Origin: Marchantia polymorpha subsp. ruderalis
Taxonomy: Eukaryota > Streptophyta > Marchantiopsida > Marchantiales > Marchantiaceae
Assembly: GCA_037833965.1 (NCBI GenBank)
Contig: AP031359.1
Location: 5,142,001-5,206,000, forward strand
Direction of reading: 5' to 3'
Length of the DNA stretch: 64,000 bases
A model generated the notes under the pieces. The model searched no databases and had not been told where the DNA came from. It saw nothing but the letters and a program-made list of their open reading frames with translations. The position numbers and the translations under genes were made by a program. This document shows positions 1 to 63,029 of this stretch, piece after piece. Position 1 is the stretch's first letter. Each line of letters opens with the position of its first letter.

Positions 1-1608
1 AATCCCACGCAAGAGGAGATAATTGCGCAGATTCTAGGGAAGTCGACAAATACCTCTGCGCAGAAGGCACCAATGCCTTCGGAAGGAGATGGACGGACTG
101 ACAGTCGGGCGACTGAAGGTCGACAAGCGGAAGGAAGGCCAACTTAGCGGCGCGTTGAACCGGACAGTAGGCAAGAAGCAGAAGAGAGTTTGGCTGACGA
201 GCCAACAACCCTAAGAAAGTCGTCTTCGGCGGAAGGCACTTCTGGGAAAACGCCGCCAGCAAGCAGGCCAAGTGGAGTAAAGACGCGCAGGGTGTATCCG
301 ACTCCCAGTCGGACAACTGCTAGTCGGCCGACTGCGAGTCGGTCAAACGAGAGTCGGCCGGATTCGCCGACTGCGAGACGGACAGGACCGGCGACCAGTG
401 TGCGAACGCCTTTGGCGGACGCACCTTCAGCGAAGACACCTTCCGCGCAGATTGCGCCGGAAGGGCAGGCAGCAGAAGCGGGCGGTGCAAGGGTGACAAG
501 AGTCACTGCGGCGTCGACCCCTTCGGAGACCGAAGATCGAGCCGGAACAGGGGCTCAAGCAGTGGGATCCCCCACTGCCCTGGATATTTTAGCAAGCAGT
601 GGTGTGGCAGTCGCAGCGGAAGCTGCTGCGCGCCACAGTTCCAGGGAGTCGCCAAGGGATTCGGTGGCGACTGAAATCCTCGAGACTGAGGATGAGACGA
701 GCTCGGAAGAGCAGGAAGCGGACTCTGTGCAAAAAACGCCAACAGGGGTGTTGTGCGAGCAAATAGTCCCTCTCCTGCGATATCTATATCGCAAGACATC
801 CAAGTACTCGGGTACTGGAAAACCGCAGTCTTATGTGGAGACTGTCAAGCGCTGGACGAGGAGCAAGGTGGCCACTTGGGCCTCTAGGTGCCAAGTATAT
901 GTGGAAAGGAACACCGTCCTCCGACAACACCTGGCGGTCACACAGAAGCTATACCAAGCCTTGCAGCAGCAGAGGGAGGATGCGGCGACGAAAAGCCAGG
1001 CGGAGGCCGAGCTAATGCGGGCAAAGATCGAGTCAGAATTGCAGGAAGAGCGGAGACAAAACCGCATCCTAGCAACAGAGCTTGCGCGCCAGACGCGCGC
1101 CTTGGAAGAAAGTCAAAGAGCCCGCAAGGAGGATGAGGAGTTGTTGCGCAATTTGCAATCCGAGTGCTCAGATTTGCGGGCGCAGCGTGCGGAAGCGGAA
1201 ATGCAGCTAGCAGAGGTGGAAGGCAGCTGCCGGGCGCGAGAAGAGTTGGCGACGCGGGTGACTCACTGTCTAAAAGGATACGCCCATTGGGAGGTGGCAG
1301 CTCAAGAGAGGATCACACTAAGGGAGTTTGAGCTTCGGGCGGCGGCTTTGACGGAGGATGACAGTCAGAGTCGGCGGCGAGTAGCGAGAAAATTAGAAAC
1401 CTTCTTGTCGGGTGCGCGCGACACTATGGCGCACTTAGAGTCGGAAGTCACTGCAGCCCTCCGACGCCTGGGGTTGCGCAGCCGGTCGGAAGACTGGCAA
1501 GGTAGAGACAGCGAGCGGAGCAGTCCGGCGTGCAGGAGGCGCAGCACCGGATCCGCCGAGTGCAGTAGTATAGTTTGGTTTCGCGCAGGTGTTGCGAGTA
1601 GTAGATAG
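1..1608 (+). pseudogene. LTR-encoded coiled-coil protein, C-terminal part (element A LTR)
   Basis: The reading frame is open from base 1 to a TAG at 145-147, then from about 148 to the TAG ending at 1608, so this is the 3' end of a longer gene with one nonsense change. An ATG at 190 gives 472 codons but is unlikely to be the true start. Visible in order: an S/T/P/A-rich linker with repeated 'PSA' motifs (190-500), an acidic stretch (about 660-730), the family block 'LLRYLYRK...SYVE' (about 750-850), a long heptad-like coiled coil rich in Q, E, A and L (about 900-1250), and a C-terminal block with 'SRRRVARKL' and 'LRRLG' (about 1260-1480). Copies at 12330-14850, 30831-32551 and 46453-47118 share the same order. 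The function is unknown. Confidence 0.75.
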
Positions 1609-2285
1609 CATAGCGTAGTGTTAGTTAGGACCTTTGAGGGTATAAAGTAGATCAAGGCGTTTTGCCTTGGGACTCTTCCAGTTTCAGAAGTGCAGATCAG
1701 GAACTCACTTTCTTGACGTGTTTGTGCATTTTGGTCCTGGCACCACGTAGAGAAGCTGCAGCATAGCGAAGTTACCGTATGTTGTAGTTGAAGGCCTGCG
1801 GCTGAATGTTCAGAGCTAGCACCCGGTTAGAGACTTGAGTAGTGCGGATCTGCACCTGCGGGTGATTTCTGATGCTCAGAGCCGGCTGCGAGTTAGAGAC
1901 TTGAACAGTTCCCCCTTACTCCTTCGAGTGACATATCCTAATGCCAAAGTGAAGTTTTATTACTTCGTGTAAGCCTTGGTTTGCAATTCAGGTTGTGTGT
2001 GTGTGTGTTATTGGATTGGATCTCAGTCAAGTTCTCAGTCGGGCCTGCACTCCCTGCGTTTGGTGTGAGAGTCGAGGGTGACGTCCACGGCGTATGAAGA
2101 GGCTTCGTTCCGAAGTGGGAAGTCCAGTCCGGGTTCCCTACGCTAGTTCCTGGCGAGAGGGCAGTAAAAGCCGGAGTGGGAGTCACTACCTGCAGAACCT
2201 CTGAGTGAACTTTTGAGACACTTTCCTCCTGAAATCCGAAGCGGAGGTCCTGACCGACCTCCGAGTTGTGCTTTTGCCAGTTTTC

Positions 2286-2287
<2 letters not shown>

Positions 2288-2317
<30 letters not shown>
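2288..2317. repeat. (GT)15 microsatellite inside the LTR
   Basis: Thirty bases of pure GT lie about 250 bp before the LTR end. The inverted LTR copy has (AC)11 at 35464-35485 in the corresponding place, so the tract belongs to the LTR family rather than having arisen at this locus. Confidence 0.95.
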
Positions 2318-2318
<1 letters not shown>

Positions 2319-2574
2319 GAGTGACCACGCTGTAACGTGCATCCTCCGAGCATCCTCCGAGTCGAGATCCTCCTCCGAGTCGAGCCTCCGAGTCGAGCAT
2401 TGCAGTATTTCTGGGAGTGACAGTCGCCTAGAATTCAAACTCTACAAAAGTCTGTTAAACGTGACACTTTTACTCTGTGTGTTGCCTTTGTCCCTGTGGG
2501 TTTGATCTTTTTACCACCATACTGCAGTTTTAGCCTTTGGTGGGTTATTACATAAGGAGCCGACAACTTCTTTT

Positions 2575-2592
2575 TGGCGCCGCTGCCGGGGA
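2575..2592 (+). other. Primer binding site, tRNA-Asp type
   Basis: TGGCGCCGCTGCCGGGGA is complementary to the 3' end of plant tRNA-Asp with one mismatch. It starts nine bases after the LTR end at 2565. A tRNA-Asp primer is typical of Tat/Athila Ty3/gypsy elements, which agrees with the reverse transcriptase and integrase downstream. Confidence 0.85.
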
Positions 2593-2635
2593 CAGTGCGT
2601 CAACACCAGAATACTTGAGCAGCAATGCTCGGTGA

Positions 2636-4546
2636 ATGTCGACGAGCGATAGTGTGGGAAACCTAAGTGCGAGAGCCACACGAAAACTCCGTCGAGATTC
2701 AGAAAAAGCCGTAGAAGCAAAACGGCGAACTAAAAAGAAGACTCCCGGTGAGGACTCTGCAGAAAGATCGCCATCACCGACTGCTGGAAGACAAAGGCGT
2801 TCTAGTTCACCTACCGCGAGCATTGAGCTAACAGTTCTATTGGAAATTCCTCCGACAGAAACTCTTCCTGAGTTTGGCCAACCTAGGATCAGTCCGTTGA
2901 CAGGATCACCAATGGCAGACCATCAAGCCAATCTCCGCCAGGTGTTTTCCCAACCTATCACGAAACATTCGTATCCAAGATACACGGGAACGGGCGACGA
3001 CGATGATGCAGATTCATACATAAAGCTCTTCGAGTCTGTCTCCATCGCCAATCGTGAGACCAGTGATGAAGACAGACTGCGAATCTTTCCTAGCCTGCTA
3101 CGCAGGAGAGCTCGTAGCTGGTACAACCATGAGAGCACCGACCCCACTGGCATCCGGACCTAGGCTCAGCTCAAGGAAAAGTTTCTGAGGCGGTTTCGCG
3201 AACTCGGATATGACAGTCGAGTACTGACCCGGCTTCGAAATCTTCGACGCGAGCGGAAGGAGAATCTTTGAGACTATACTGAGAGATTCCAAGACCTCCT
3301 AGATCGAATTCCGAAGACAGGCCCAAAAGAACCATTTTCGGTGCAACAAGCACTGGATTGGTATGTGACAGGGCTCTCAAGAGAAATGGAGACCTTCTGC
3401 AGGAGAGGCAAGACTGACACAATCCAAGATGTGATAGCTTCGGCAGAGACCTTTGAAACGTCAACCCTTGACACTCGAAGACGCGACCGACGGTCGACGA
3501 AGAAGAAATCGCAAGGCGGACGTCGGAAGAGAAGAAACTCGCCTTCCTCGACAGAAGAATCAAGCTCCTCCGAATCAAGTTCTTCCTCGGAAGAGGAAGA
3601 GGACTCGTCATCTTCAGAAGAAGAAAGACGGAAGAAGAAACGCAGTACGATCAAGAAGAAGGATCGAGGTAGGGGAATCCCAATGAAGAGTCAAGGGGAC
3701 ATCGCAGCCAAGGTAGACAACCTGGTGAAGAATTTTGCGGACCTGAAAGTTCATGTAGTGGGAGGCCAAGACCGACGTAAATCACCTGCGAGACAGCGAG
3801 CGAATCTCTGGTGTACTACGTGCGGACAGGTGGGACATGCCAACACGGAGTGCATGTCCGCTCGCCCAACTTACCCAGTGAATGCGGTCGAATGGGCACC
3901 ACAGTGGGAGAATCCCATGTATTATGCTGAGCCGGTTGAGGACACCGCCTACGCGGTGCAGACAGCTCCAGCTACACCTCCGAACCCACCTGTGCATATA
4001 CCGCGCTTTGTTCCGAGAGAAATGGCGGGTACGCTCCCACCGAGACGCATGGCACCTCCAGGCAATTACAACCGACCTCCACCACAATTCAATGGTTGCT
4101 ACAACTGCGGGGACATGGGACATTACACGCCAAGCTGTCCCCACCTTAGGAAGCAAATGGGGTATGCACCGTTGTGCAGCAATTGCAAGAAGTCTGGACA
4201 TACGGCAGCCGAATGTGATCAGCCACCAGTTCCTAGGCAAACCGTGCGTTTCGTATCGACACCTGGCAAGGAAGAGGTGCAGGTCAACCAGGTAGAACTG
4301 AGCCCGGACCCAGCTGAAGAAGACGAAGTATGGCCGGAAGAAGAAGTAATGTGCGGACGGGTAGAGACCCGAAGTTCGAAGAGGAGGGGAGAGGACCACG
4401 AGGACACTCGCCGCCTCGAGCGCAGGGAAGAGAGGAGGAAGTCTAAAGAAGTTAGAGAAGGCCGAAGGAGAAGGCCAGGTACACCTCCGGCGATGCGGAA
4501 CATCCAGCCGGAGCAGAACTCAGAGAAGGCGGACAGGTCTTCATAA
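2636..4546 (+). pseudogene. Ty3/gypsy element A: Gag
   Basis: The Gag frame starts 43 bp after the primer site at ATG 2636 and stays in one frame to 4546. It is broken by TAG at 3161-3163 (where family members have W before 'AQLKEKFL') and TGA at 3269-3271. The N-terminal part is basic. The middle has the retrotransposon gag core ('YTERFQDLLDRIP', 'IASAETFE'). A Ser/Glu run (about 3530-3630) follows, then a Lys/Arg patch, then three CCHC zinc knuckles: CTTCGQVGHANTEC near 3810, CYNCGDMGHYTPSC near 4100 and CSNCKKSGHTAAEC near 4175. A charged Arg/Glu tail ends the frame. The protein would coat element RNA in virus-like particles. The stops make this copy non-functional. Confidence 0.88.
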
Positions 4547-5443
4547 GAGTTCCGGACCCGAGACTACCTTCCAGACATCAAAGATGAGGTGAGTCACCTC
4601 ATCAAGGAAGCACTGGGCGCCGGAACGATATCCGACGACCGGAAGGCGGCTAGGCCCCCTACACCACTTCCGACCGCGAGTTCAGAGAGAGTGGCGGCTG
4701 TGACTTCCAACACTTCCTACGACATAGTGGAGGACATAGGGAGTCAGAGGGCAAATATTTCCTTCCACCAGCTGTTGGAGGACAATAAGACGTACAAAAG
4801 GATGCTGATGCTTTCGTTGCGCCGACCACGCAAACCCCGAAAAGGGAAACTTTCGGCTGTGTACAGAGTGGAAGGAGGAGACCTAGGACCTCCAGAGATC
4901 GAAGTAGAGATCGGAGGCTGCGTCATACAGAAGGTACCAGTGGACTCCGGCTCGGGCGTGAACATCATGACCGAGGAGACAGCGAACTCCTTGGGGTTCC
5001 AGACCTTTGAGCCTACATCCCGAGTGTTGCGAGTGGCCGATCAAACGCGCAGAATGCCGCTAGGAATGTTGAGCAATGTGAGAACCAACATTGGAGGTGT
5101 GGACTTTCAACTGTCCTACATAATATTGCAACCTCTAATGAAGAAAGGTTATGATGTGCTGCTTGGCAGACCGTGGCTATACGATGCCAAAGCAAGGTGT
5201 GACTGGAGGAGGAAGAGATTACAGTTCCGGAACCCTGCGGACCCTCCGACTGTCATTACCGTACCATGGACCAAGGTACCACATGAGGGCGAAACACCTT
5301 TGACCACCTCCGGTTACACGACTAGAGGGGAGACCAGCTCGTCATGCACTTCAAAGACAGAAATGTCGGATGAGTTTGTGGGTTACGTCACTTGCTGCTC
5401 CATCGAGGAGGAAGGAGACGGTGTGCATCCGGATGACGAATAG
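4547..5443 (+). pseudogene. Ty3/gypsy element A: aspartic protease
   Basis: This continues in the Gag frame after the TAA at 4544-4546 and ends at TAG 5441-5443. The retropepsin active site is 'VDSGSGVNIM' at about 4939-4968, and the second conserved strand is 'YDVLLGRPWL' at about 5150-5180. Because gag, protease, RT and integrase share one frame, element A was probably translated as a single polyprotein cleaved by this enzyme. The nearest ATG (4589) is internal and need not be a start. Confidence 0.82.
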
Positions 5444-6904
5444 CAACTAGCAGCCGGACTGGGCAGAAGCGAGATCAGTCACACAGAGGGGATTGTCGAC
5501 CCAAGTGACTGCTGCGAACTGCAGCTCAGTCCAGATAAAGGCTTGAAGGTGTCAAGCCAGGTACAAGGAGAAGAGTTGAACAGGGTACATGCGTTTCTTC
5601 GCCAGTATGAGGATGTCTTCGCATGGAAGATTGAAGACATGAAAGGCATACCTGCAAGGTATGGGGAGCACAGGATCGACTTGTTGGACGAGGCAGTTCC
5701 GGTTCGCCAACGCCAATACAGGCTCAACCCAAAATATTCATTATTGGTGAAGGACGAAATCGATAAGTACCTGAGCGCATGGATCATCTACCCGGTACTC
5801 AGTAGCGAGTGGGTGTCGCCTATCGTAATCGTGCCCAAGAAACTGACGGGTAAGATCCGGGTGTGCCAGGACTTCCGAAAGCTGAACGCAGCAACGAGGA
5901 AGGACCATCACTCTCTTCCTTTCACGGACTCTATTTTGGACCATGTCGCAGGGCATGAATGCTACAGTTTCCTAGACGGATTCTCCGGCTACAACCAGGT
6001 GTCCATCAGGGAACAGAACAAGGACAAAACAACCTTCACGACCGACTGGGGAACCTATGCTTATCACAAGATGCCTTTCGGGCTGTGCAACGCACCAGCG
6101 ACGTTCCAACGGATGATGACAAACATCTTCCAAGAGCACCTGAGGAAGTTCCTGGAAATTTTCATCGATGACTTTTGTGTCTTCGGTAAGAGGTCGGAGC
6201 ACCTTAACCATCTTCGGCAGACGTTTAACAGATGTCGGGAGAGCAGCTTGTCCTTGCACCCTGAGAAGTGTTTTTTCTTCATGACCAGCGGAATGGTGCT
6301 GGGGCACCGAGTTTCGTCCGATGGCATTGCAGTGGATGTAGAGAAGGTGAAGATTATTCTCGAACTTCAGCCGCCGACGAACCTGCGTGAGTTGAGGGCC
6401 TTCCTTGGCCATGTAGGCTATTACAGAAGGTTCATAAATATGTACGCCATCTTGGCAGCCGATCTGATGAAGCTGCTTAAGAAGGAGGAACCCTATGTGT
6501 GGGGCAAGGAGCAACAGCTAGCCTTTGAAACACTCAAAGCCAAACTAACGACTGCTCTGGTTCTGAGAAGTCCGGATTGGAACAGACCTTTCCACGTCTA
6601 TGTAGACACGTCGGCATTTGCAATCGGAGTGGTTCTCAGTCAGAAGGACGACAACAAGAAGGACTACCCGATTTACTTCGCGAGCCGTCGGTTGTCAGCA
6701 GCAGAGAAGAAGTACACGACAACTGAGAGGGAGGCGTTGGGAATGGTGTACTCCTGTAAGAAGTTCAGACATTATTTGATCTGCTACGAGTTCGTGTTTC
6801 ACGTGGATCATTACGCCTTACAGCACCTGGTGAAGAAGGCGGATCTGTCCGGACGAATTGCCAGGTGGGTACTACTGCTGCAGGAATTCACCTACACGGT
6901 GTAG
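5444..6904 (+). pseudogene. Ty3/gypsy element A: reverse transcriptase and RNase H
   Basis: The frame is the same as the protease and ends at TAG 6902-6904, where CAG is expected ('FTYTV[Q]TRKG'). RT motifs appear in order: 'GKIRVCQDFRKLN', 'PFTDSILD', 'FLDGFSGYNQ', 'PFGLCNAPATFQ' and the catalytic 'FIDDF' near 6160, with F replacing the usual Y. RNase H follows with 'HVYVDTSAFAIGVVLSQ', 'YTTTEREAL' and 'HVDHYALQHL'. The style is that of Tat/Athila lineages. The enzyme would copy element RNA to cDNA. Apart from the terminal nonsense codon the domain is intact, so the copy is not very old. Confidence 0.9.
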
Positions 6905-7849
6905 ACTAGGAAGGGCGTTCACCATGAGAACGCGGACTACCTCTCCAGACTATGGACCGAACCCATAGAAGAGGAAGTAGTGGATGATTTTCCCGACGAA
7001 CAACTTTTTCAGTTGTCCGCCAGCCATGAGTCCAGGTACGCGGACTTATACAGGTTTCTGCTCACACTCCAATGTCCGGAAGGATTGGATGCGGAGCAGC
7101 GCACAGTCTTCGTTCATAAAGCGGGACCTTACCAGCTCCAACAGGGGGTCTTATTCAAGAAAATGGCAGATGAGAGGCTATGCAGATGCTTAGAGGAGTC
7201 CGAAGTTCCGCGAGTCGTTAAGGCCATGCACACAGAGGACGCTGGTGGTCATTACGCCACCAGGAATACAATGACCAAAATTGTGAATGCAGGATACTGG
7301 TGGCCGACGATGTTCAAAGATGTACACGACTACGTTCGCAAATGCGATAGCTGCCAGAGGACGGGAAGGCCGACTCCGACCACGAGATGGCCTCTGACAC
7401 CGATCATGCCCTTGGCACCATTTGAAAAATGGGGGATCGACTTCGTGGGACCAATACAACCTGTCACTAAAGGCACGCGCAGGCGCTACATATTGGTAGC
7501 AACAGACTATGCGACCAAGATGGTGGAGGCAGAGGCCACAAGGCACGACGACGCAGCAGCAGTAGCACGGTTCCTATTCGAATCAATCATCACACGCTAC
7601 GGGTGCCCACTAGAAATAGTCAGTGACAGGGGAACGCACTTTCTGAATCAGGTGATAGAAAATTTGACGCGGCACTTCCAGATTAAGCATCGGAAGACTA
7701 CTCCATACAACCCCAAGGCGAATGGTCTGACAGAGAAGTCCAATGGATTGCTCTGTAAGATACTCCTCAAGGTGACTGTGAATCATGCTCACGACTGGGA
7801 CACCAAGCTACCGGCCGCCTTATGGGCAGAGAGATTTGATTTGGAGTAG
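6905..7849 (+). pseudogene. Ty3/gypsy element A: integrase, 3'-truncated
   Basis: The same frame continues after the TAG at 6902. The HHCC zinc-binding module is present (H...GGHYATR...'CDSCQR', about 7227-7360). The catalytic DDE residues lie in 'WGIDFVGP' (near 7434), 'VSDRGTHF' (near 7620) and 'NGLTEKSNG' (near 7725). The protein then runs to 'LPAALWAE' and switches to unrelated residues before TAG 7847-7849. At that point the DNA becomes RT sequence of element B in another frame, so the integrase C-terminus, any 3' UTR and the 3' LTR of A are missing. Confidence 0.88.
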
Positions 7850-9536
7850 GACGTTGGACCTACTGGAGGCTGGATTAGTGGAGTTATCGCATGGTGAGTA
7901 TGCGTCAGCCACTGTCATGCCGGTGAAGAAGGATGCACATGGCAACTACACGGATAGACGCATGTGTGGAGACTACCGTCCTATCAATTGGCAGACGAAG
8001 TCCGATAAGTATGCCATGCCTACACCTGAGGAGATCTTCGATGTGGTGGGACATGCGAGGATTTTTAGTACTTTGGATCTTCAGGCAGGATACCATCAGT
8101 TGCCAATTCGGGAGGAAGACAAAATCAAGACAGCGTTTTGGGGCGTCAACTCCCACGGCAAGGATTGTTTGTATCAGTGGCGATTCTTACCATTTGGGTT
8201 GAAGAATGCACCTGCCGAGTTTCAGAGGGTTATGGACAGAATCCTGGCGGGGCTGGATTTTGTCAGATGTTACATTGATGATATCTTGGTGTTTAGTGAC
8301 ACTGTGGAGCAACACCAGATACATTTGCAAATTGTGTTTGAGCGATTGAGGGCTCATGGTTTGAGGTTACATCCTGGAAAGTGTAAGTTCTTCCAGGAGA
8401 AGGTTGAGTACTTGGGTCATGTGATATACCCAGGTGGTTTAGGAGTTCAGCAAGCAAAGGTGGAAGCTATTGCACGCATACCTCGTCCCACGGATGTGAG
8501 TAGAGTTCGTGCATTCATGGGTTTGGCGAACTACTACCGGAGGTATGTGAAGGGGTTCAGTGCTATATCCAAGCCTCTGAACCAGTTGCTGAAGTCAGAT
8601 CAGGAGTGGCAATGGGGAGATGAGCAAGAGAGAGCTTTTGTTGAGCTCAAGGCCAGGTTGGTGGCTGCTCCCATCTTGAGAAGACCTATCAAAGGTCGTC
8701 CATACCAGTTGCACACTGATTGGAGTATGTTGGGACTTGGAGCGGTGTTGACGCAGCGTGATGATGAGGGCAAGGAGTTTGTGGTTGCGTACGCTAGTCG
8801 TTCGAACAATGCAGCGAAGTCGCGGTATAGTTCGTACGAGGGAGAGTGCTTGGCAGCGGTGTGGGATGTGGCACACTTAAGGTGTTACTTGTTTGGTACG
8901 CAGTTCACCCTTGTTACTGATCATCAGCCGCCGCTCAAGTGGTTGATGGAGTCCGACAAGCTCACAGGGAAGCTTGCACGGTGGGCTCTGATCTTACAGG
9001 AGTACAATTTTCAGGTAGTGCATAGACCTGGAGTTGCGAACCTGGATGCCGATGGTTTGAGTCGAAACCCATGCACTAGCCAGGAGGATGACACTGGAGC
9101 TAGATGGCATGGTGTGGTTGACAAGGAGATGGTGCCTGGTTGGCATGCATCTGCCTTCATGTGTTGGTTATGTGGAAACTCCAGCAGAGAGGATCATCTG
9201 TCATCTTACTCTAGTCAAAGAGTAGATGGTCGATCTTCAGATCCTGAGGTTGAGGACGGTGGTGTGGATCAGCGTGATGTTCACGATGATGCATTGATGT
9301 TGAATATCCTACGGACCAGCATGGTGCCATGCACAGTGGGTGCCAAGGAGCGAGATCGTGTTCTCCAACGAGCGAAGAGATACCGATTGGAGGGATCACA
9401 TGTTCTCCGAGTGTGGGAGGACGGTAGGGTACGAGAAGTACCACATCCAGCCCAGAGAGCACGCATTGTGAGGCATGCTCATGAGGAGTTGGGACATTTT
9501 GGAGTGAAGCGTACATACAGTTTACTCCTTCGTTAG
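7830..9536 (+). pseudogene. Ty3/gypsy element B: reverse transcriptase, RNase H and integrase zinc finger
   Basis: B starts abruptly inside the RT N-terminal region ('RDLIW...EAGLVELSHGEYAS') at the junction with A. Its LTR, gag and protease are absent. RT motifs are complete: 'RRMCGDYRPIN', 'FSTLDLQAGYHQLPI', 'PFGLKNAPAEFQ', and 'YIDDILVFS' near 8270. RNase H follows ('LHTDWSMLGLGAVL', 'YSSYEGECLAAVW', 'VTDHQPPLKWL'). Integrase begins with the first His residues of the zinc finger ('HEELGHFGVKRT'). A single in-frame TAG at 9534-9536 interrupts the ORF; family members usually have Q or R there. B is clearly a different lineage from A. The ATG at 7785 is within A and is not a B start. Confidence 0.9.
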
Positions 9537-10718
9537 TATTGGTGGCGTGGTATGCATACACAGGTACAGCAGTTGGTATCACGTTGCATGGTTTGTGATC
9601 GAGTGATGGCATCATTCAATGCTCCGACACTAGTGTTACATCCATTACCCATCATGGGGTTGGGTTACCGTTGGAGTTTGGACTTTGTTGGACCACTATC
9701 TTTGACTGTACGACATCATCGGTATGTGTTGGTGATGGTGGAGCATTTCTCCAAGTGGATTGAGTTGGTGGCATTACGTGACAAGGCAAGTGAGGGAGTA
9801 GCATATGCTTTCCTTGATAGAGTGCTTAATCACTATGGTGCACCAGCTGAGGTGTTGACCGATCAAGGGAGGAAGTTTCAAGGTGAGTTTCAGGTCTTGT
9901 GCGACAGGGCACTGATTGATCATCGGACCACGTCACGAGATCATCCAGAGACGGATGGTTTAGCTGAACGTGTTGTACAGACGGTGAAGAGGTCATTGCG
10001 CAAGTATGGCCTGCAGAAAGGTCATCTTGGGAACTGGGATATCCAATTACCGTGGTTGGCCATGGGATATCGGTTCAGTCGGCAAGCATCCTTGGCTTCC
10101 TTCTCACCATATTTTCTATTGTACGGCCGAGATCCAGACTTGCCAACATCGATTTGTCGTGAGTCTAGCGAGGTGGTGAACCTTGATGACCCGAATATGT
10201 GGGTGAGAGTATGTTCTCAGCGTGCAGAGCTCTTTTGGAGAGTTATGCCTGCAGCGTTTGAGAATCTTGCGATTGCTCAACATAGAGATACGTTGCGGTA
10301 TGCAACCATTCGGGGAGGAGGTTATCGACCATCGATTCGTAGATTCCATGTGGGAGACTACGTCTATCTACAGCAGACTGCACCGACGACATTGGATTTG
10401 ACGGCGGGACGCACAATCTTGCGGGTGCGGGAGGTGTTACCTTCTGGAGTTCTCCTGTTGGAGGGTCGTGACGGCGTTGTTTGGAAGGATCATGTGCGCA
10501 ATTGTGCGCCATGTCACCTCCCAAACATAGATGGTACTATGGACCCAAGCTTAGCAATAGTACGTGCTAGCTTGAGGTGCATGCTATGTGGGTCAGCTGG
10601 TGAGGCGGCCCGTATGTTGGTGTGTGATAGGTGTTCTAGAGGATGGCACATGTTGTGCCTGACTCCGCCTATCGATGTTATTCCGGCTGGACGATGGGTC
10701 TGTCCTCGATGTACTTAA
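9537..10718 (+). pseudogene. Ty3/gypsy element B: integrase with C-terminal PHD finger
   Basis: This continues the B frame directly after the TAG at 9534. The rest of the zinc finger ('CMVCDRV'), the catalytic core ('SLDFVGP' near 9676, 'VLTDQGRKF' near 9853, 'TDGLAERVVQ' near 9954) and the C-terminal SH3-like region ('FHVGDYVYLQ', 'GVVWKDHVRNCAPC') are all intact. A C4HC3 PHD zinc finger follows the integrase C-terminal domain and ends three bases before the stop. Integrase inserts cDNA into the host genome. A terminal chromatin-reader domain on Ty3/gypsy integrases, usually a chromodomain, guides where insertion happens, so I infer the same job for this finger. Confidence 0.9.
10578..10712 (+). 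other. PHD zinc finger at the integrase C-terminus
   Basis: The metal ligands are CMLC, CDRC, then H and C in 'GWHMLC', then CPRC, in C4-H-C3 order, with the conserved W two residues before the last CxxC pair ('RWVCPRC'). PHD fingers commonly read the histone H3 tail. The right edge of a 702-bp duplication starts inside this finger at 10670. Confidence 0.88.
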
Positions 10719-10880
10719 GAGGGGTAGATGACTTGATCTTCACATGTTATGAATTGCAGATAGGCGACTAACGATGGGGCGACATAGCACCCGGCCTACT
10801 GGTTCGCGCACCCACGAAGGTGTATAGCATGTAGTTGTAGATAGGGCTACCTGGGAGTCAGAGGGACCTGACCGCCAGCT

Positions 10881-10892
10881 AGGGGGGCAAGT
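10881..10892 (+). other. Polypurine tract of element B
   Basis: AGGGGGGCAAGT lies directly before the 3' LTR start at 10893. A purine run in this position primes plus-strand cDNA synthesis. The duplicated copy is at 11583-11594. Confidence 0.75.
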
Positions 10893-12004: not shown

Positions 12005-12006
12005 GT

Positions 12007-12329: not shown

Positions 12330-14850
12330 TCATCTGCTATGTCTCCTGCGCGACGGACTACCGCGCACTAACTCCCTACTCTCCTCGACTCTACTGGGCA
12401 TTCCCAGCCGCCGCAACACCGCAGTCACCTCCGCCTTGAGGTTCGCAATGGCGTCTCGCAATCTCGCCAGGGTGGCATCTAACCTCTTCGCGACCCGCCG
12501 TCGGCTCCGACTGTCATCTGACATCAAGTCCGCCGCACGAATCTCTAACTCGCGCAGGGTGATTCTCTCCTGCGCAGCCACTTCCCAGAGAGTGTAACCT
12601 CTAAGACAATGGTTCACTCGCCCTGCCAACTCTTCTCGCGTGCGATCTGCCGCACGCCGGCGATCACTCTCGATCTCTACCAACTGCAGCTCTTCCTCTG
12701 CACGCTGCGCTCTCAATTCGCCGCACTGCGATTGTAGGTGACGAATTAAGTCTTCATCGATTTGACGTGCGCTCTGACACTGCTCTAGTAACCGTGTCTA
12801 TCGCACGAGCTCTTCTGACAAGATGTGATTCTGAGCTTGCTCAGAATCGATTTCCGCCTCGAGCTTCTCCCGCTGCTTCGCGAATTCCTTCTCCGCTTCG
12901 GCCGACTTCTCATCACGCATCTTGTTGACTGCCTTTTGCAATTTCCGCACAAGTGCGAGGTGTCCGCGGAGGGCCTCGTTCTTTAACTTCAAATCCTTGA
13001 TTGTCTCGTCCAAGGAAGCCAACAAGCTATTGGTCCTTACCTTGGTGCGCGTTCGCCTGCGCACCAATTCGACGTAGGACCCAGGGTGGCGTGGATCAGC
13101 ATACTTCGCCACCTTGCGATCGAGGTACCTCAACAGAGGTACCACCTGTTTGCACAATGCCGTCGTCGACATGCCTTGCACTGACTCCTTCTCCTGCTCC
13201 TCCGAGCTCGATTCATCTTCTTCATCCTCCGAATTGAGGATTTCGGTCGCCACGAAATTCCCCGGCGATTCCCGGGAGTTGGGTTGCGCAGCTTTTGCTG
13301 CTGCTGCTGCCGCCGCACTACTCCCTGCCAAAATGTCCAAGGCAGTGGGGGACCCTGCTCCCGACAAGCCCGCACCTCCCGTCTGATCTGCTACCACTAA
13401 AGGTGCAGCGCTGAGGGCGTCCATCGCCGGAGGCGCTTGTGCCGAAGGCACACGTGCCTCCTCCTTCCGTCCTTCGTCCGTTTTCTCACATTGGGTCTGC
13501 GCCGAAGGTGCTTCCGCCGAAGGCATACCGCCAAAGGCGTCTACCGCCGAAGGCGCTTGTCCCGAAGTCGCTTCACCCGAAGTCCGTTGACCCGAAGTCG
13601 CTTGGGCCGAAGGCTCTTGACCCGAAGGCTCCTCCTCACTTCTCTGCTGCGCCAAAGGCTCTTGACCCACAGTCGAGTCATTGAATGGTACTTGCTCGGA
13701 AGCGAAGCACCTGTCAGTCGTCGGCACATTTGTCGGTGCCGCGTGTTGCCTCCCTTGACCCGAAGGCCTTCTCGCTTCCGCCGAAGGCGTCCGTGCCTTC
13801 GGCGCAGGGAGGTCCGCTAACCTCTCTACAGTTCGTGCACTCACATCCTCCCCCAAGGATGGCCAGTTTCTTCCCTTTGCAGCACGCCCCATCTCTACGC
13901 TGCTTGCAGGCAAGACAAGCCTGCATGCCTTCTGCTTGGGCCGACTGCAGAGCTCTGTCAGTGGCCGCTTTCGATTGGGAGCAGCAGTCTCGCGTTGCTG
14001 GCTCTTCTCCGCTTCTCCTTCCCACCTTCGCTTCCACGGCACTCGTGCTGCGAGCGATTCTCCCTCTGCCCTCGGTTGAGCTGGTGGCGTGCAGGCAGGT
14101 GTATCGTCTTCGTCGGTATCAACTTCGACGTCCTTCACATACCGGCTCGGATTGCTGCGTGACAGCAATGGGAATTTGCACTCGCTCTGTCGCAGTCAGA
14201 CATCCCATCGACCGATAGAAATTGATCAAGAAGGGGGAGAGGTAATTGATCGATCCTCCCTTCTCCTCGAACGCATGTTGTCTCGTCGCCTTCCACAGAA
14301 TGCGAGCCCAATGAATCGGAGCTCCAGCCAATGCCAGCTCCACGAACGCCACTTGCCAAGAAGTCATGAAGGTGGTCCTGTGCGGCTGCAAAAGTTGAAT
14401 GAGGGCTACCGCGACATTCCTGCGGAAGCGATCCTTGTAGTCCCGGGTCTTGTACCCGTTCTTGCTGTACTTGCTGCTCTTGAATAGGGCCCTGAAGGAA
14501 ATCTCTTCGTCCTTCGTAACCTTGATATTCTCGCTGTCGAACAGAAGATGGCCTTCTTCTCCCGCGCATCTTCCCAGCACCTGCTCCCAGTCGCAGACTT
14601 CCCATTGCTTTAGGTGCGGTCAAAATCCGCGCGTAGGTTGATCCTTGCCCTTCTGCCACTCGCGAACCATATCCTGGCACACCCAATTCCATGCCCACTG
14701 GAGCAAATCAAGTTTCACTGCAGTCAGCTCTTGCTCGAATGCACGCAACCCAATTTGCAGTAGCTTCAACGGAATCATCCGCAGCTGTGTAACCTTTGAC
14801 ATCGCGTTCTTGAATTCACTCGCGCTCGTCAGAAGTCCGCAAACTTTCCT
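12330..14850 (-). pseudogene. LTR-encoded coiled-coil protein (copy C), most complete copy
   Basis: Reading leftwards, N-terminal block 1 runs from about 14850 to 14170: 'WAWNWVCQDMVREW', 'WEQVLGRC', 'FDSENIKVTKDEE', 'RRNVAVALIQLL', 'SWQVAFVE', 'HWARILWKATRQ' and 'NYLSPFLINFYRSMG'. A frameshift near 14165 leads into 14168-12798, which holds a basic/acidic part, a 'PSAQ/PSGQ/TSGQ' low-complexity region (about 13430-13810), an acidic patch, the 'VVPLLRYLDRK...SYVELVRRRTRTKV' block (about 13060-13160) and a coiled coil. TAG at 12798-12800 interrupts; the frame resumes to 12330 with the 'SRRRVAKRL...VLRRLG' C-terminus. TGA at 14620 is the other nonsense change. No enzyme motif is visible. A Gag-like or DNA/RNA-binding structural role is possible but unproven. 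Confidence 0.72.
13430..13810 (-). repeat. Coding minisatellite of short GCC-GAA-GGC hairpins ('PSAQ' region)
   Basis: The nonamer GCCGAAGGC and close variants (CCCGAAGGC, GCCAAAGGC) recur roughly every 15-30 bp. In the coding strand they read CCTTCGGC within P-S-A/G codons, giving runs such as 'EPSGQEPSAQATSGQ'. The motif is a 3-bp inverted repeat around GAA, so coding and structural constraints overlap. Confidence 0.8.
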
Positions 14851-30727: not shown

Positions 30728-30830
30728 TGTGGTGCCTAGTAATTTTGTTTTTCTTTAAAAATCAACAAAACTTAAAGATATTTGTTTAGAAAGTAGTTGT
30801 TAGAGTTGAATAAGGAGCTCCTGAGGAGAA

Positions 30831-32551
30831 ATGATAGAATTAGTGAGAATTCGTCTACGTCCAAAGATCTTCGGATCTTCGTGTCTTCGGCGCAGCCTAA
30901 GTGGAGCCAGGCCGCACAGAGCTCGCGCAAGACCAAAGAAGAGGGCGAAACGGAGGATGGTGACAGTTGAGGTGTCGGACAGCAGTGTGGAGAAGACGGT
31001 GGCACCAATTGTAAACACATCCAAAGTCGAGGTAATGCGGCTTGTGGAGATAGGAGTACCTTCGGAGGTGTTAGTTGAAGTCTCGGCAAACCTACCGGCA
31101 GAACCTTTGAAGGAGGAAACGGAGTTGGTAAGTCCGATATCTCTGTCTTTGGAGCAGACGCGGTTTGCGCAGGGCGAAGAGACACCACAGATGAAGATGA
31201 ACGAGGACCTGGAGAAGGAGTTCACTTTGAGCGAGGAGATTCTAGAATAGGTTGTCGCACGGGTACGAGGGACGGTGGTAGAAGCCAAAGGCATTACACT
31301 GCCGACATCTCCGGTGGAAGAGGTGAGACCCGAAGAAGGGAAGAAGACTTCGGGCGAAGATGTGAAGACATTAGAAATTACATTTCCTGAATTTTTGCAT
31401 GATAGTGTAGTTCCATTGTTGAAGTACTTGGACGGAAAGAGAGGGAAGTATGCTGTAACGGAGGAGACAGGATTCTATGTACCAATGATCAGGAATAGGA
31501 CAAAGCGTAAGAGAGTAGTTGCAATAAAGAGGGAGTGGAATTCTGCAACTGCATTGGTACGGGAGCGAGAAGCCCAGCTTCGGGAGAAGGAAACTGTGTG
31601 CGAAGTACTGCTGCTGAATCTAGAGAAGGAATCCGGGCGCTATGCAGAGTTGGAGGAGACCTGTGGAGGACTTTGTATCTCAATGAGAATGCCCAGAAGG
31701 TAATAGTGGATTTGATGGAGAGATTGGAGAAATCCAGAGAAGGTTACGAGGCGGCAACCAAAAGATCGGAGCGGTTGATCACTACTACGGAGAAGCGAAA
31801 GAAGAAACATGTCAAGGAACTTGCCACATTAAAAGCCCGAAGAGCCGAAGAAGCTTGTATTGGCGAAGAACTTTGGGGCAAAATGGCAGAGGCGAAGACG
31901 GCGGAGGAAAATCTTTGTAGCAAAATTTCGGAGATTGAGGCGAAGTGTGAGATGGAAACCCATCGTGCGGAGGAGCTATCAGCAAGTCTGTCGGCGGGAA
32001 ACCAGAAGCATGAGGAGGAATTAGCGGATTGGGCCAAGAAATTGGTAGTTTGCGAGTCGGCCAAGTCTTTGGAGGTCGAATGTAAATTAAAGATTGAATC
32101 CGACTGTTGACAGTTACGAGAGCAGTTAGGGAAGGCAGAGATGAGATCGGAAGAGTCGCAAAGGAGAATGGAAAAGGCAAAGGAGGCCTACCGTCAGCTG
32201 CGGGAGGATTCAACCGACGTGTTGAAATTGCGGTTAGAGAAGTGTCTGAACGAGTTCACGATATGGGGATTGGATTCGGTGAAGTGGTTGAAGCTAGATC
32301 TACTCGAGCGACGGCTGATGAGCGCGAAGACCAGCGGATCCGCAGGACACAAACAAATTGTAGAGTTAGTTAATTTATTTTTGGAGGAATTGAATGAGGC
32401 GCGCCAGAATGTAGAAGTAGAGATTGTAAACGTGTTGCGTAGATTAGGAGTAGAGAGTAGTTCAGACAATGCTGTAACCGTTACATTGGACGGCACAGCC
32501 CTTGAGACCGATTCGCCTCAGGCGGTTGATATCCCAGAGTTGCCATTGTGA
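30831..32551 (+). pseudogene. LTR-encoded coiled-coil protein (copy N), N-terminal block deleted
   Basis: After the 5' deletion the frame enters at 'HRARARPKKRAKRRMVTVEVSDSS'-type sequence (30900-31000). TAG at 31248-31250 is a C-to-T change, since copy O has CAG at the matching codon. 'SVVPLLKYLDGKRGKYAVTEE' lies near 31410. A frameshift near 31680 leads into a long coiled coil (to 32108, TGA), and the same frame resumes with 'LEKCLNEFTIWGLDSVKWLKL' and 'VNVLRRLGVES', ending at TGA 32549-32551. This copy has the best-preserved coiled coil and C-terminus of its subfamily. The two blocks after the coiled coil match those in copies A and C, though the words differ. Confidence 0.72.
30864..30879 (+). 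other. UUCG-tetraloop hairpin in LTR 5' region (copy N)
   Basis: AAGATC-TTCG-GATCTT forms a 6-bp stem closed by C-G around UUCG, the very stable cUUCGg tetraloop class in RNA. It lies about 135 bp after the LTR start. Confidence 0.8.
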
Positions 32552-33078
32552 ATAAAGAGGCCCAAGGCTCTATCCTTGGAGGGCTTTTCTGTCAATTGGA
32601 TTGTCTTGATTGTGAATCTGTATCCACTATGTCTTTGCGCTGGTGTGTGATCCAGGCTTGAGGCACGGTGCGTTCATGTTTGTCGAAGTTACCGCATCAA
32701 GAGTTGTGAGTATTCGGTTCGAGTGTCTTGAGCAGTTGAGGCTCCTTGGGATTTAAGCAAATTCGAGTTTGAGAATTCGGGTCAGTGAGTTGAGATGTAT
32801 GCGATGCTAGGAAGTTTCCTGCCTGAAATATAAGTGTGAAGTTGCAAGCGATTCCTACAGGCGTTGTTTGGAAAAGTTTCAGGTTGTGAGTGAGGTTATG
32901 CACTACTTTTCAGGTCTTCGGCTCTAGCTGGGTAGTGTCTTCTGGGAGTGGCATTGGCCTAAGAAGTGAAACTCTTTAATAGAATGTTATTCTGTGACAA
33001 ATCGTGACTTTTGTGGTTGTTTCTGTCCTCGTGGGAACTGTCCATTTTGCTCCATTTTGGTATTTGTTTGTCATTACA

Positions 33079-38869: not shown

Positions 38870-40745
<1,876 letters not shown>

Positions 40746-40755
<10 letters not shown>

Positions 40756-51803: not shown

Positions 51804-51944
51804 TCCGGTGTGGGGTCTACTTTTTTGTTTTTCTTTAAAAATTAACAAAACATAAACATATTTGTGTAGAAGATAGTTATATGAGTTGGAAAGAGTAGAT
51901 TTATAGGAGTTATGATAGGATTAGTTAGAATTTGTCTACGTCCG

Positions 51945-51960
51945 AAGATCTTCGGATCTT
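51945..51960 (+). other. UUCG-tetraloop hairpin in LTR 5' region (copy O)
   Basis: AAGATC-TTCG-GATCTT, the same stem and loop as at 30864-30879, about 136 bp after the LTR start and 270 bp before the ORF start. Confidence 0.8.
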
Positions 51961-52231
51961 TGTGTCTTTGGCGCAGCCTTTCATGGACGTACGAAGAGCT
52001 GCGTCTTTGGCAAAGACATCGGAATCAATTTCAAGTCATGCAACGGGCCGGACGATGCTCGCACGCGTCGGGAGTTCTACGAGGCGCGGAAGAAGGCAAT
52101 GTTAGGGCTTCAAAGTTAAAGGCAATATGAGGAGACTTTGCGCCGACATTGCGATATCAAGCAAGAACAAGCAAGAGAGAGAGGAATTGCAATCGAGCCA
52201 ACCTGCGATTAGCGAAACGCAAATTAAAGAT

Positions 52232-53927
52232 ATGGCACCCAAGAAGAGTGAGAAGGTGAGGAAATTGGTTCCCTTGAAGTTGCCTTACGAGGAATTGAGA
52301 CCTTTCAGACACGAGTTGAGGGAACTGCGGCTTGAATTCCTTTTGTGGAATTGGAATTGCGTCTTAGCGAGTATCTGCAAGGAAGTTATGGACAAGAGCA
52401 CGGTCGAAGGCGAGGAGCTCCGCGATAATCCCTTGTTGTGGACTATCAAACATTGGACAACGGTCCTGGGACCCTGTGAGAGCAGCGAAGGAGACCTGCT
52501 ATTTGAGAAGAATAGCGTAGGACTTACGTGCGGCGAGGAATTCTCTTACGGGTCTCTCTTCGAGACTGGAAGACAGGGAACGAATGGATGGAAGATTGTC
52601 GATTATAAAGATCTGAAGAGACGGGCGATCGCGTTAGGGATCATGCACATCTTACGGCTGGCGCGCACGACTTATGTGACGGCCTGGCAAGTAGGATTCT
52701 TTGAACGCATTTTGAAGAGACAGCCCGTATATTGGGCAAGGATCTTTCACGATCTTGTTTGGATGAAATGTAGGTTCCTGGTGGACAGGACCTTTTACCA
52801 ATCACATCACTCCCTTTCTGGTGAATTTCTATCGAGGGATGAGATTGCTTACGAGGGAGGAAGAGAAACGATTTCCGAGAGAGCGGGAAATCCTGACGGC
52901 TGAGTCCAGTGAAGGGACAAAAGACGAGAACCGACCCCCCTCAATTTCAACACACACAACCGCTCGAGGACCAATGCAGGTGGAGGTGGTTCAAAGACAG
53001 GAGCAGCCAGAGAGACGATTGGCAAAGAGAAGGAAGGTTGTGAGTGATGACGAGGAGGAATTGGCCCACGAGGTAAGAAGGATGGATATGGATGTAAGTG
53101 GAGCCAGGCAGCACAGAGCTCGCGCAAGACCAAAGAAGAGGGCAAAACGGAGGATGGTGACAGTTGAGGTGTCAGACAGCAGTGTGGAGAAGATTGTGGC
53201 ACCAATTGTAAACACATCCAAAGTCGCAGCTAGCGAGGTAATGCGACATGTGGAGATAGGAGTACCTTCGGAGGTGTCAATCGAAGTTCCGGCAGATATA
53301 CCGACAAAACCTTTGAAGGAGGGAACGGAATTGATAAGTCCAATTTCTCTGTCTTCGGAGCGGACACGATCTGCACAAGGCGAAGGGACACCACAGATGA
53401 AGATGAACGAGGACCTAGAGAAGGAGTTTACTTTGAGCGAGGAGATTCTTGAACAGGTTGTCGCAAGGGTAGGAGGGACGGTGGTAGAAGCCGAGAGCAT
53501 TACACTGCCGACATCTCCGGTGGAAGAGGTGAGATCCAAGAAGGGAAGAAGACTTCAGGCTAAGATGTGAAGACATTAGAAATTACATTTCCTGAATTCT
53601 TGCAGGATAGTGTAGTTCCATTGTTGAAGTACTTGGACGGGAAGAGGGGGAAGTATGCTGTAACGGAGGAGCCAGGATTCTATGTACCTATGATTAGGAA
53701 TAGGACAAAGCTCAAGAGAGCACTTAAAGTAAAGAGGGAGTGGGAGTCCGCAACTGCGTTGGTGTGAGAGAGAGAAGCCTAGCTTCGGGAGAAGAAAACT
53801 GAGTGCAAAGTACTGCAGCAGAATCTAGAGAAGGAATCCGGGCTCTGTGCAGAGTTGGAGGAGACCTGTAGAGGACTTTGTATCTCCAATGAGAATGTCC
53901 AAAAAGTAACAGTGGATTTGATAGCAA
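52232..53927 (+). pseudogene. LTR-encoded coiled-coil protein (copy O), best N-terminal block
   Basis: The ATG at 52232 starts 'MAPKKSEKVRKLVPLKLPYE'. The frame upstream is open to 52127 but differs between copies, so I chose the conserved ATG. Block 1 continues 'LRLEFLLWNWNCVLASICKE', 'TVLGPCESSEGDLLFEKNSV', 'EFSYGSLFETGRQGTNGWKI' and 'ARTTYVTAWQVGFFERILKR', then 'VYWARIFHDLVW'. A frameshift near 52790 leads to 52821-53570: 'NFYRGMRLLTREEEKRFPRE', 'RRLAKRRKVVSDDEEELAHE' and an S/T/V-rich linker. Another frameshift near 53560 gives 'DSVVPLLKYLDGKRGKYAVT' and early coiled coil, ending at TGA 53765. No signal peptide, membrane segment or catalytic motif is apparent. The Trp-rich block with R/K-rich patches could be a Gag-like or nucleic-acid-binding fold. 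Confidence 0.75.
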
Positions 53928-54479
53928 GACTGGAGAAATCCAGGGAAGCTTGTCTCAACTGTCATTTTGTCTTCGCTGTGTGTCTATGTGCTGGTGTGTG
54001 ATCCAGACATTGAGCACAGGGCGCTCTTGGTTGTCGAAGTTACCGCATCGGGAGTTGTGAGTATTCAGCTTGGATGTCTTGGGTAGCCTAGGGTTACTAC
54101 GGGATTTAAGCAAGTTAAGGTCCGAGTATTTGGGTCAGTGTGTTGAGATGTATGCAGTGTTGGGAAGTTTTCCCCCTGAAATATAAGTGTAGGATCGCTT
54201 GCGATTCTCACAGGTTTTGATTGGAAAAGGTTCAGGTTTTGAATACGGTTTTGCACTACCCTGTGAGTCTTCGGCTCTAGCTGAGTAGTGTCTTCTGGGA
54301 GTAGCATTGGCCTAAGTAAAACTTCGTAATAGAATGCTATATGGTGACAAATCGTGACTTTTGTGTTTGTTTCTGTCCTCGTGGGATCGGATCTATACCA
54401 TTATGCTCCATTTTGGTGTTTATCTGTCATTACATCCGGTTACCTTTAACCTTATCTTGCCAAGGCCTACTCGGCGTGC

Positions 54480-60383: not shown

Positions 60384-63029
60384 TGTGATAATGCAGTTTT
60401 TTTGTTTTTTCGGAAATAAAGTAATTAGGAAGGGAAATCCACACAAGTTTTAACTTTTGAGATTGTAGTAGTTAGAAGAGAAGAGAATAAGTCCTTTTAG
60501 TATAGATGCTAAGTAGGAGTAGGAAATACAAAGGATTTCCTTGGAAAGAGCTTGGCCTGCGGAGGCGGATTAGTGGGACTCGAGCTACGGAAAGAAGGGG
60601 TGAAAACCCAAGTTCTCCAAAGACCTAGATCAGTATTTGAAAAAGGGTATTTGGTATTTGAAGATGACTTTGGATTTACTTCCAAAGGCCTTCTGGCAAA
60701 GGATCTCAAGTGAAGTAAAAGATGGCACCGCAGCAGAAAGAAATGTGAATGGCAGCACCTTCAATTTGCACAAGTTGACTCTACCGTTGCGACGACGGGT
60801 TACACCAGCAAGGGCGCGAGTTCTGCTCCCACATTTCACAATCACACTATTGCAAATCGCAAAGAGATTGTATTGCGGAAGGTCAAAATAGAGGAAGCAG
60901 CTATGGAGCGACAGATTTGATTGACCGCACTGAGAGTTTTGGAGTCGGAATTGCGAGCGTATTGTTGTGAATTGATTTTTGCAAAGATGGATTTCTTGCT
61001 TTTAGGTTGGAATTGGGTGTGTGCAGCGATGGTACAGGAGTGGGACAACGGTGACGCTCCGAAGCCACTGGGCTATTGAGAAAATCCTAAGACTTGGCAA
61101 ATTTGGGACTCAAAGAAAGTCTTGGGGTGTTGCACATGACATGATGGCGATCTTACCTTCGATAGTGAGAGCATCAAGGTAACACAAGCTAAAGAAAAGT
61201 CATATGCAGCCTTATTCAAGAACCCGGGCACCGGCAAGAATGGATAACGAACCATCGGATATCACAATTGTTTTAAGAGGAATGTGGCGATGGCATTGAT
61301 GCAGATACTTTGACCTTCTCGGACCAGAAAATAAAATGACTTGGCAGGTTGGGTTCGTGGAACGAGCGCTGCGAGGGGATTGAATTCACTAGTCGCAAAT
61401 TTTTTGGACTGCCACCCGGCAAAACATTGGTGTACTTCTGGGAGTATCAGCCAATTACCTGTTCCGTTTTTTATTAATTTCTATAGGAGGATGGGGCTGT
61501 TAACTGCTGCAAAGAGAAAAGAGTTTTTGATGCAAACTCATGCACGGGAGGGAGAAGAGGTTCTAAGTGCCAACGAGATCAACACCAATCCAAATAACGA
61601 GCAAATTAAATTGCCTCCAAGGAGAACAGAGCTACTTAGGGACAGACGAGAAGAGCGACCACGGAAGAGATGGAAGCTTCAAGAGATCGCAGTGACTGAA
61701 GAGCGTGAGCGCAGAGCAGTTTCCACCAAGTTCAGAATGCCTAATGCTTGAGCTAGGAAGAAGATGAAAGCTAGACAATTGATACTAGAGGCTGAAAGCA
61801 GCACGGAGAGCAGCGTTGCTGCGTCGCAAGGTTTTACCCCACCAGGAGACGGGGCAGAGTTGGAAGTAGAGACCGATGTTAGAAAGAAGAGTGTGCTTTT
61901 GAAGAAGTACCTTTGGACTTTTGAGATGAGACCTTTGCCAGTGGTGAAGCGCCGTGCAACAAGGAAGGAAAAAAGGAAGGTCATTATGACGGAGTAAGGA
62001 ATCACAAGAAGAGATCAAGTTCCTTCGGTTGGCGCCAGGGTAAGAAGCGTGCGGAAGTACTGACATTATCATCGGACATAGAGCAGGATCCTATGGCTCT
62101 AGAGAAATTGTTGGAGGCGAGAAGAAGAATCGACAGCTAGCGGAGCAGACGAACGACGCCTTGACTGAGAAGGTGAATAAGTGTGTGTATGGGTTTGTAT
62201 TTATTATGACAAGTCAAGACGCACAAGTGATTGCAGTTACAAGATTTGGAGCGTCACGCGACTGCAATGATAGCATGTAGTGTTAGTGGGCAGCGTAAGT
62301 AAGCTAGGAAGTTAGATGTGTTTCTTACAAGTTAGTGTGAGGCGATGGCAGACTTGAAATTGGAGCTGACGGTTGTTTTGCACATGTTAGGTTTAGATCA
62401 AAATTCGGATAGCAAGGCAACTGCCGACTCTGCGGACGTTATGCCTGTTTGGAGCTCGCATCAGAGCAAGTGACATCTCAGAGTGTTAGTTAGGAATAAA
62501 CAAGCTCAAGGCTTCTGTCTCAAGGGGATTCTTGATAGTTAGTTTTCTCAGTTTTGAGCTTGCGTTCTTCGCTCGTCTATGTATTGAGAGTTTTGTCACC
62601 GCGCGAGAGGTACTTCGGTTTGACAAAGATACCGCATCCGAGGTAGTAACCCAATTCAAATGTTCTGAGTAGCACTTGGCTAGATCAAGATTTAAGCAAG
62701 TTCATAACTAGAAGCTTCGTGCAGTTCCTAAGTGTATCCTTCAGGAATTTTTCCCCGAGACAGGGTCGCTAATACTAAGACAGGGTCGCGATCGACCTCT
62801 GTGATGCTGGATTGAAGAATTTCAAGATTGATTGTGTAATTTATGCTGCATTGTGCCTCCTTCGGACTTAGCACCTATAGTATTTTTTGGGAGTGATAGT
62901 TGCCTGAGAGTTCAAACTCATCAATAGACTGTTAAATACGTGACACTTGTTGCTCATTTTGTTGTTTCTGTCCTCGTGGGATCAAATATTTGCCATTATG
63001 CTGCATTTTGGTATTTATTTGTCATTACA
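60384..63029 (+). mobile_element. Solo long LTR copy F, with 5-bp target duplication (one mismatch)
   Basis: It begins TGTGATAATGCAGTTTTTTTG at about 60384 and ends TCATTACA at 63029. Flanks are ATTTG (60379-60383) and ATCTG (63030-63034), a 5-bp duplication with one later change. The length is 2,646 bp with no internal region. Bases 62880-63029 align well with 32930-33078 and 54290-54434. Confidence 0.8.
60740..62480 (+). pseudogene. LTR-encoded coiled-coil protein (copy F), heavily decayed
   Basis: Pieces of block 1: 'FAKMDFLLLGWNWVCAAMVQ' (near 60990), 'WQIWDSKKVLG' and 'GDLTFDSESIKVTQAKEKSY' (61140-61210), 'FKNPGTGKNG', 'FKRNVAMALMQIL', then 'FFINFYRRMGLLTAAKRKEF' (61470-61530). The linker has 'RKRWKLQEIAV' and 'KARQLILEAESSTESSVAAS' (61764). 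Much of the coiled coil is deleted; C-terminal block words ('VNKCVYGFV', 'VLHMLGLDQ') appear at 62170-62400. More than ten stops or frameshifts make it the most decayed copy, which fits the mutated target duplication. Confidence 0.65.

Follow-up and report, generated by a model that had tools for sequence, protein, structure and literature searches.

The window analysed here is a stretch of 64,000 nucleotides of Marchantia polymorpha subsp. ruderalis (contig AP031359.1, positions 5,142,001 to 5,206,000), and it opens inside the long terminal repeat (LTR) of a retrotransposon. Copies of this repeat contain a conserved open reading frame (ORF), and their sequences show the order of a complete element to be an LTR made of about 1.4 kb, the ORF with its 850-1,040 codons, a TATAAA motif and about 0.9 kb, then 22 nt, the primer binding site (PBS), gag-pol, the polypurine tract (PPT) and the same LTR again. 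The pattern of substitutions shows the coding frame of the ORF to have been under purifying selection. The reading that we favour, and consider probable, is that of a Ty3/gypsy LTR retrotransposon with an accessory gene in the U3 region, inside its LTR.

The repeat and the complete elements

The genome searched consists of 241 Mb in nine contigs, the window lying on one of 5.59 Mb; BLAST matches below 100-200 bp were not counted in LTR comparisons. Positions 1-2592 of the window have at least 46 matches in this genome, mostly 91-99% identical over nearly the whole query (best 40 of 4,376 candidates scored). The full repeat is found in a solo copy on contig C2: it is 4,884 bp long, reads TGTGGT...TTATTACA, and is flanked by the 5-bp duplication TGAAG. 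The same ends, with matching duplications, are found at C3:3.15 Mb (ATTCC) and, in copies that are nested, on C7 (GCTAT) and C5 (CAGTC); the flanks of an LTR-long copy at C8:6951496 differ, ATACG versus ATATG. Where the repeat is the 5' LTR, TAAGGAGCC... comes next and then, 22 nt on as a rule, the primer site; where it is the 3' LTR, GAGGAGGGGGGCA stands before it, on the PPT side.

The features of the window element are all on the forward strand. The 3' part of its 5' LTR occupies 1..2552, or LTR positions ~2297-4884. This LTR begins 450 bp before the window and is missing LTR positions 269-2242, and therefore holds only the C-terminal part of the ORF, the coiled-coil region, at 1..1608: residues 312-851 of P0001, an uninterrupted version of the protein described below, align to window positions 1-1605 with 94% identity, the first ~290 residues are missing, and an in-frame stop occurs before position 190. 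The TATAAA motif, a consensus match that we presume to be the promoter of the genomic RNA, is at 1641..1646, 33 bp past the ORF stop. A preliminary description of the window had placed the end of the LTR at 2565: the target duplications of solo and complete copies move it to 2552, with ATTACA at 2547..2552, and the primer site therefore lies 22 nt further in, behind a spacer at 2553..2574. The same description was right about the end of the frame at 1608, about the 18-nt primer site at 2575..2592, which we take to be of the tRNA-Asp type, and about the gag-pol region that follows. The latter (2636..7828) begins with the gag ATG at 2636, contains a zinc knuckle, protease, reverse transcriptase (RT), RNase H and integrase, and is broken off near 7828 by another retroelement.

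The primer site is 22 nt inside the LTR end, or 17 nt in another type of junction, and yet 3' LTRs stop exactly at ATTACA; reverse transcription starting there should add bases that have to be removed ahead of integration. Upstream of the window, an inverted copy of the LTR (positions 4997-7307 of L011, C1:5136997-5139307) stands head to head with the window LTR, to which it is 99% identical, with the same internal deletion.

That the ORF is inside the LTR, and present twice in a full element, had been proposed from the window alone. Two elements with matching target duplications bear this out, each having an ORF-bearing LTR at both ends. At C6:30195844-30216254, GAAAA is found at both outer flanks, both LTRs are complete, and one nested solo LTR (duplication CCTAT) lies ahead of the PPT. 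At C7:22306560-22329405, the outer flanks are TCATA, and the 3' LTR is interrupted by a nested inverted solo LTR and one further insertion, which leave its ORF region undivided. Both LTRs were seen in four of the eight gag-pol copies whose flanks were fetched outside the window: these two (C6:30.2 and C7:22.3 Mb), C8:23.0 Mb, and C4:10.26 Mb, where the 5' LTR is cut into by another LTR. The C8:23.02 Mb copy was set aside as a true LTR pair, its flanks being TCCTC and CACTC and its repeats differing at 296 of 4,826 sites. The 5' LTR of an element at C3:12.36 Mb was not found at the expected place, and a single LTR at C6:2367521 has the PPT to its left and the primer-site side to its right. An architecture with inverted terminal repeats was rejected: the inverted LTRs behind gag-pol on C7 and C5 each proved to be an entire solo LTR flanked by a duplication of its own, GCTAT and CAGTC respectively.

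The internal region of the C7 copy, 5,769 bp long, is filled by the gag-pol frame, and therefore leaves the ORF no room outside the LTR: a single frame extends from an ATG at 84 to 5,729, with three stops between its pieces, Pfam recognizes in it Retrotrans_gag, zinc knuckles, protease, RT, RNase H and integrase, and pol ends ~40 bp short of the 3' LTR. The exact pattern of LTR end, 5 to 34 nt and primer site occurs 1,200 times in the genome (622 + 578), and the exact PPT/LTR-start pattern 911 times (460 + 451); the backwards control of each gave 0. On C1 and C2, with 91 primer-site and 58 PPT junctions, there are 44 same-strand pairs of PBS and PPT at start-to-start distances of 5,747-5,793 bp, and only two other same-strand distances below 15 kb, 9,103 and 12,135 bp; on C2, six distances from PPT to PBS measure 4,877-5,419 bp and span about one LTR. 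A 1.2-kb query over the junction of internal region and LTR gave 40 scored candidates (best 40 of 2,561), all of which continue through it. The contrary layout, in which a single copy of the ORF would stand between pol and a short 3' LTR, was found neither at the pol end of the C7 copy, nor in the 44 pairs of near-constant spacing, nor in the elements with matching duplications.

The reading frame and its protein

The LTR at C4:10266206 has the frame open between 1074 and 3929; translation from an ATG at 1377 gives the 851 amino acids of P0001. Two of 16 aligned LTR copies are open over the ORF frame, this one and C8:23029997, and one more has no in-frame stop but a 1-bp insertion. A second subfamily is represented by L040 (C2:31362-31368 kb), with an LTR of 5,385 bp, the PPT to its left and the primer site to its right: the frame of this LTR stays open over 1,049 codons and encodes a protein that shares 51% identity with P0001 across 816 codons. 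L022, another copy of this subfamily, is 5,389 bp long and open for 1,054 codons. In a third family, L041, the N-domain is 41% identical and the C-terminal match is weak (26%), upstream of an LTR end and then a primer site.

The C8 LTR pair was kept out of what we call the main group in the analyses of selection. For the ORF, the pooled ratio of nonsynonymous to synonymous differences (pN/pS) is 0.335 among main-group copies (66 pairs), and comparing these with two copies from a diverged lineage gives 0.273 (24 pairs); for the N-domain, the two values are 0.215 and 0.089. The two other forward frames have ratios of 0.87-1.16, flanking DNA read as codons 0.47-1.11, and the reverse frames, apart from the one sharing the third positions of the ORF, 0.87-1.55. 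Counting transversions alone gives 0.35 and 0.30, and non-CpG codons 0.35 and 0.23; bootstrap upper bounds of these ratios reach 0.57 at most. Between L040 and L022, both open, dN/dS is 0.22. The LTR pair of the C6 element, which is young, serves as an internal control: it differs at 51 of 4,870 sites, and its ratio of 1.63, from 25 nonsynonymous and 5 synonymous changes, is not different from 1 (P = 0.40).

The ORF protein consists of an N-domain of ~210 residues, a Pro/Ser-rich middle with basic clusters, and a long helical C-terminal part. Pfam scans of 16 members found no domain match, the best single hits being CENP-K (E 0.0018) and a copper amine oxidase domain (E 0.0037), both taken as chance; a sequence search of the PDB found no relative (best E 0.26). 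Two AlphaFold models have a mean pLDDT of 48 and 51, and the long C-terminal helix of a relative is modelled with pLDDT >80. The best protein match is an M. polymorpha protein, 90% identical over 58% of the query, and the named matches of three protein searches are all from M. polymorpha (8 of 8, 14 of 15 and 42 of 51 matches, the remainder being unnamed). One public gene model, P0009 (MARPO_0006s0274), combines a portion of the LTR ORF with a charged repeat and the gag of this family; it may be a hint of splicing or an annotation artefact.

Putative promoter position, competing readings and known systems

The C2 LTR has a single TATAAA, at position 3952, 33 bp past the ORF stop, and it is conserved in all 16 aligned copies; L022 and L040 each have just one TATA[AT]A, 37 bp past the ORF stop. 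If this motif is the promoter, the ORF is in U3. Under this assumption, genomic RNA would start just past the ORF of the 5' LTR and would contain a single copy of the ORF, at the 3' end; copying by reverse transcription would place it in both LTRs, because the plus-strand primer, the PPT, is upstream of the gene. Solo LTRs produced by recombination would retain a copy of the gene without gag-pol. The preliminary description had the ORF spread as solo LTRs: ORF copies are indeed kept in them, but movement of solo LTRs on their own is not to be expected. As to the protein, the role that we tentatively rank first, without giving it even chances, is that of a nuclear, self-associating regulator of the element, translated from spliced or 3'-terminal RNA.

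Several observations weigh against this interpretation. The TATAAA is a consensus match, from which its promoter role is inferred; no TATA[AT]A occurs in the 3.8 kb of L041 that were read, and the only TATAAA of the window copy at 51809-54434 is at unit position 796. At least one in-frame stop is found in 13 of the 16 aligned LTR copies. No 3' LTR was present in the stretch read for four of the eight gag-pol copies, C4:3.96, C5:4.72, C5:25.4 and C5:19.86 Mb, the first three of which have truncated internal regions. The reverse frame that shares the third positions of the ORF also has low pN/pS, 0.46 and 0.40, and the C6 control ratio is computed on just 30 changes. Comparing paired LTRs, as had been suggested, gave a ratio indistinguishable from 1 for C6 only: the C7 pair, which differs at 102 of 3,340 sites, has a ratio of 0.44 (46 nonsynonymous, 34 synonymous; P = 0.0006 versus equal rates), a misfit to the neutral decay expected after insertion that may be due to gene conversion or recombination. 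Finally, the function proposed for the protein is drawn from its composition, and the AlphaFold models of the N-domain are unreliable.

The LTR might instead be a self-contained cassette, in which a promoter in the first 1.4 kb drives the ORF, solo LTRs express it too, and the ORF is in R, not in U3. About 1.4 kb are available upstream of the ORF, many M. polymorpha gene models sit on such ORFs, with 42 of 51 hits named M. polymorpha, and LTR-long copies without flanking internal sequence are common: 14 places shared by the lists of two LTR-long queries (28 and 29 candidates scored) have no internal sequence on either side, as expected of solo LTRs. However, the first 1.4 kb of the C2 LTR contain neither TATAAA nor TATATA, and the single TATAAA follows the ORF; this is a weak argument, since plant promoters can lack a TATA box, and we hold the cassette to be unlikely rather than implausible. 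A related conjecture, to which we give a small chance, is that solo LTRs, which are numerous in this genome, are a standing store of a selected protein acting in trans, by anti-silencing or activation, on the LTRs that carry it: recombination that deletes gag-pol would then leave the regulator of the element in the genome.

The protein could also be structural, env-like or a second Gag, and not regulatory. A sense ORF downstream of pol is in the position of retroviral env, and a coiled coil is able to assemble; against this, a hydropathy scan found no transmembrane-like segment, the highest 19-residue means being only 1.35 and 1.14, and a separate Gag, with a capsid-like domain and zinc knuckles, is already present. 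We regard this as improbable. It is more doubtful still that the ORF is a passenger, a gene captured once and without present role, whose low dN/dS is the trace of older selection. The in-frame stops of most aligned copies and the lack of Pfam or PDB relatives are in line with such a history, but selection is seen between lineages and between the two open copies of the second subfamily, and frame, length and distance to the TATAAA are kept across subfamilies at 51% identity.

Whatever the role of its ORF, the element has the direct LTRs, 5-bp target duplication, PBS, PPT and gag-protease-RT-RNase H-integrase order of Ty3/gypsy LTR retrotransposons. In the C7 copy, Pfam at E 0.1 finds no chromodomain after the integrase, which fits Tat/Athila (non-chromovirus) elements, and no additional RNase H, the mark of most Tat elements; the Tat label is plausible. 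In the available text of three reports (PMC11963269, PMC7264820, PMC6317226), the additional ORFs of the plant elements Retand, Ogre and Athila are located in the internal region, that of Retand being antisense with a TRP28 domain, and LTRs of up to ~5 kb are given for this group. As far as that text goes, they resemble the Marchantia element in being non-chromovirus Ty3/gypsy elements of plants that carry a gene in addition to gag-pol, whereas the Marchantia ORF is in sense, within the LTR, and without matching Pfam domain. Pfam scans for TRP28 (PF04195), the plant mobile domain and the Athila ORF-1 domain gave no hit in 16 ORF members; in a separate genome search for PF04195 the controls were silent, and it is uninformative.

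We found no literature report of a gene inside the LTR of a plant element. To our knowledge, a selected gene inside U3 is otherwise known from retroviruses such as mouse mammary tumour virus (MMTV). MMTV sag and lentiviral nef lie downstream of the PPT and upstream of the U3 promoter, and are in both LTRs, nef partly. Like sag, the Marchantia ORF is between the PPT and a putative promoter, the TATAAA, in both LTRs; those, however, are genes of animal retroviruses, their proteins are unrelated to this one by Pfam and PDB sequence searches, and a spliced mRNA for the Marchantia ORF is a proposal. LTRs could thus be coding, and solo LTRs could retain coding capacity; pipelines that assume LTRs to be noncoding may overlook genes of this kind or annotate them wrongly. 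Since Marchantia is a genetic model plant, the role of a plant retroelement accessory protein becomes testable.

Other copies in the window and elsewhere

Three solo copies with 5-bp duplications and the same ORF had been described in the window. The duplications are exact in two solo LTR-like units of the forward strand, 30728..33078 (ATGGC) and 51809..54434 (TCCGG), and agree in only 4 of 5 bases (ATTTG/ATCTG) in a probable third, 60384..63029 (+). The ORF is represented by both N-domain and C-terminal matches in the second unit, but only by a C-terminal remnant in the first and by an N-domain match in the third. The second unit is of another family: it lacks ~0.85 kb with respect to other copies, and is a deleted member of the L041 family, whose copies (e.g. 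C4:7573445-7576918) span ~3.47 kb. On the minus strand, an LTR 3' sequence had been reported at 35149, before a primer site at 35139: the 18-nt site is there, and identical, but the nearest LTR 3' end is at 35268, 129 bp away. A diverged relative of the LTR ORF, not intact, lies at 12420..14802 (-), with 61% identity in the N-domain and 41% in the rest.

Two opposed copies of the ORF N-domain are covered by an inverted repeat of 518 nt, 86% complementary (45119-45636 / 47770-48287), which could form double-stranded RNA if transcribed. The retroelement within 7785-12081, which breaks off the window element, encodes a separate RT, its integrase frame ends with a PHD finger, and it is followed by a direct repeat of ~710 bp, 10670-11380 and 11372-12081, at 99% identity. 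ORFs at 39595-40770 (-) resemble pieces of a P-type calcium ATPase, judging from a motif.

Outside the window, four LTR/PBS junction pairs at C1 ~2.34-2.88 Mb are repeated at an offset of 406,367-406,369 bp, which suggests a large tandem duplication on that contig. At C2:31.345-31.385 Mb, LTR and internal region form a tandem array, with four PBS and four PPT junctions, each 11,184 bp apart.
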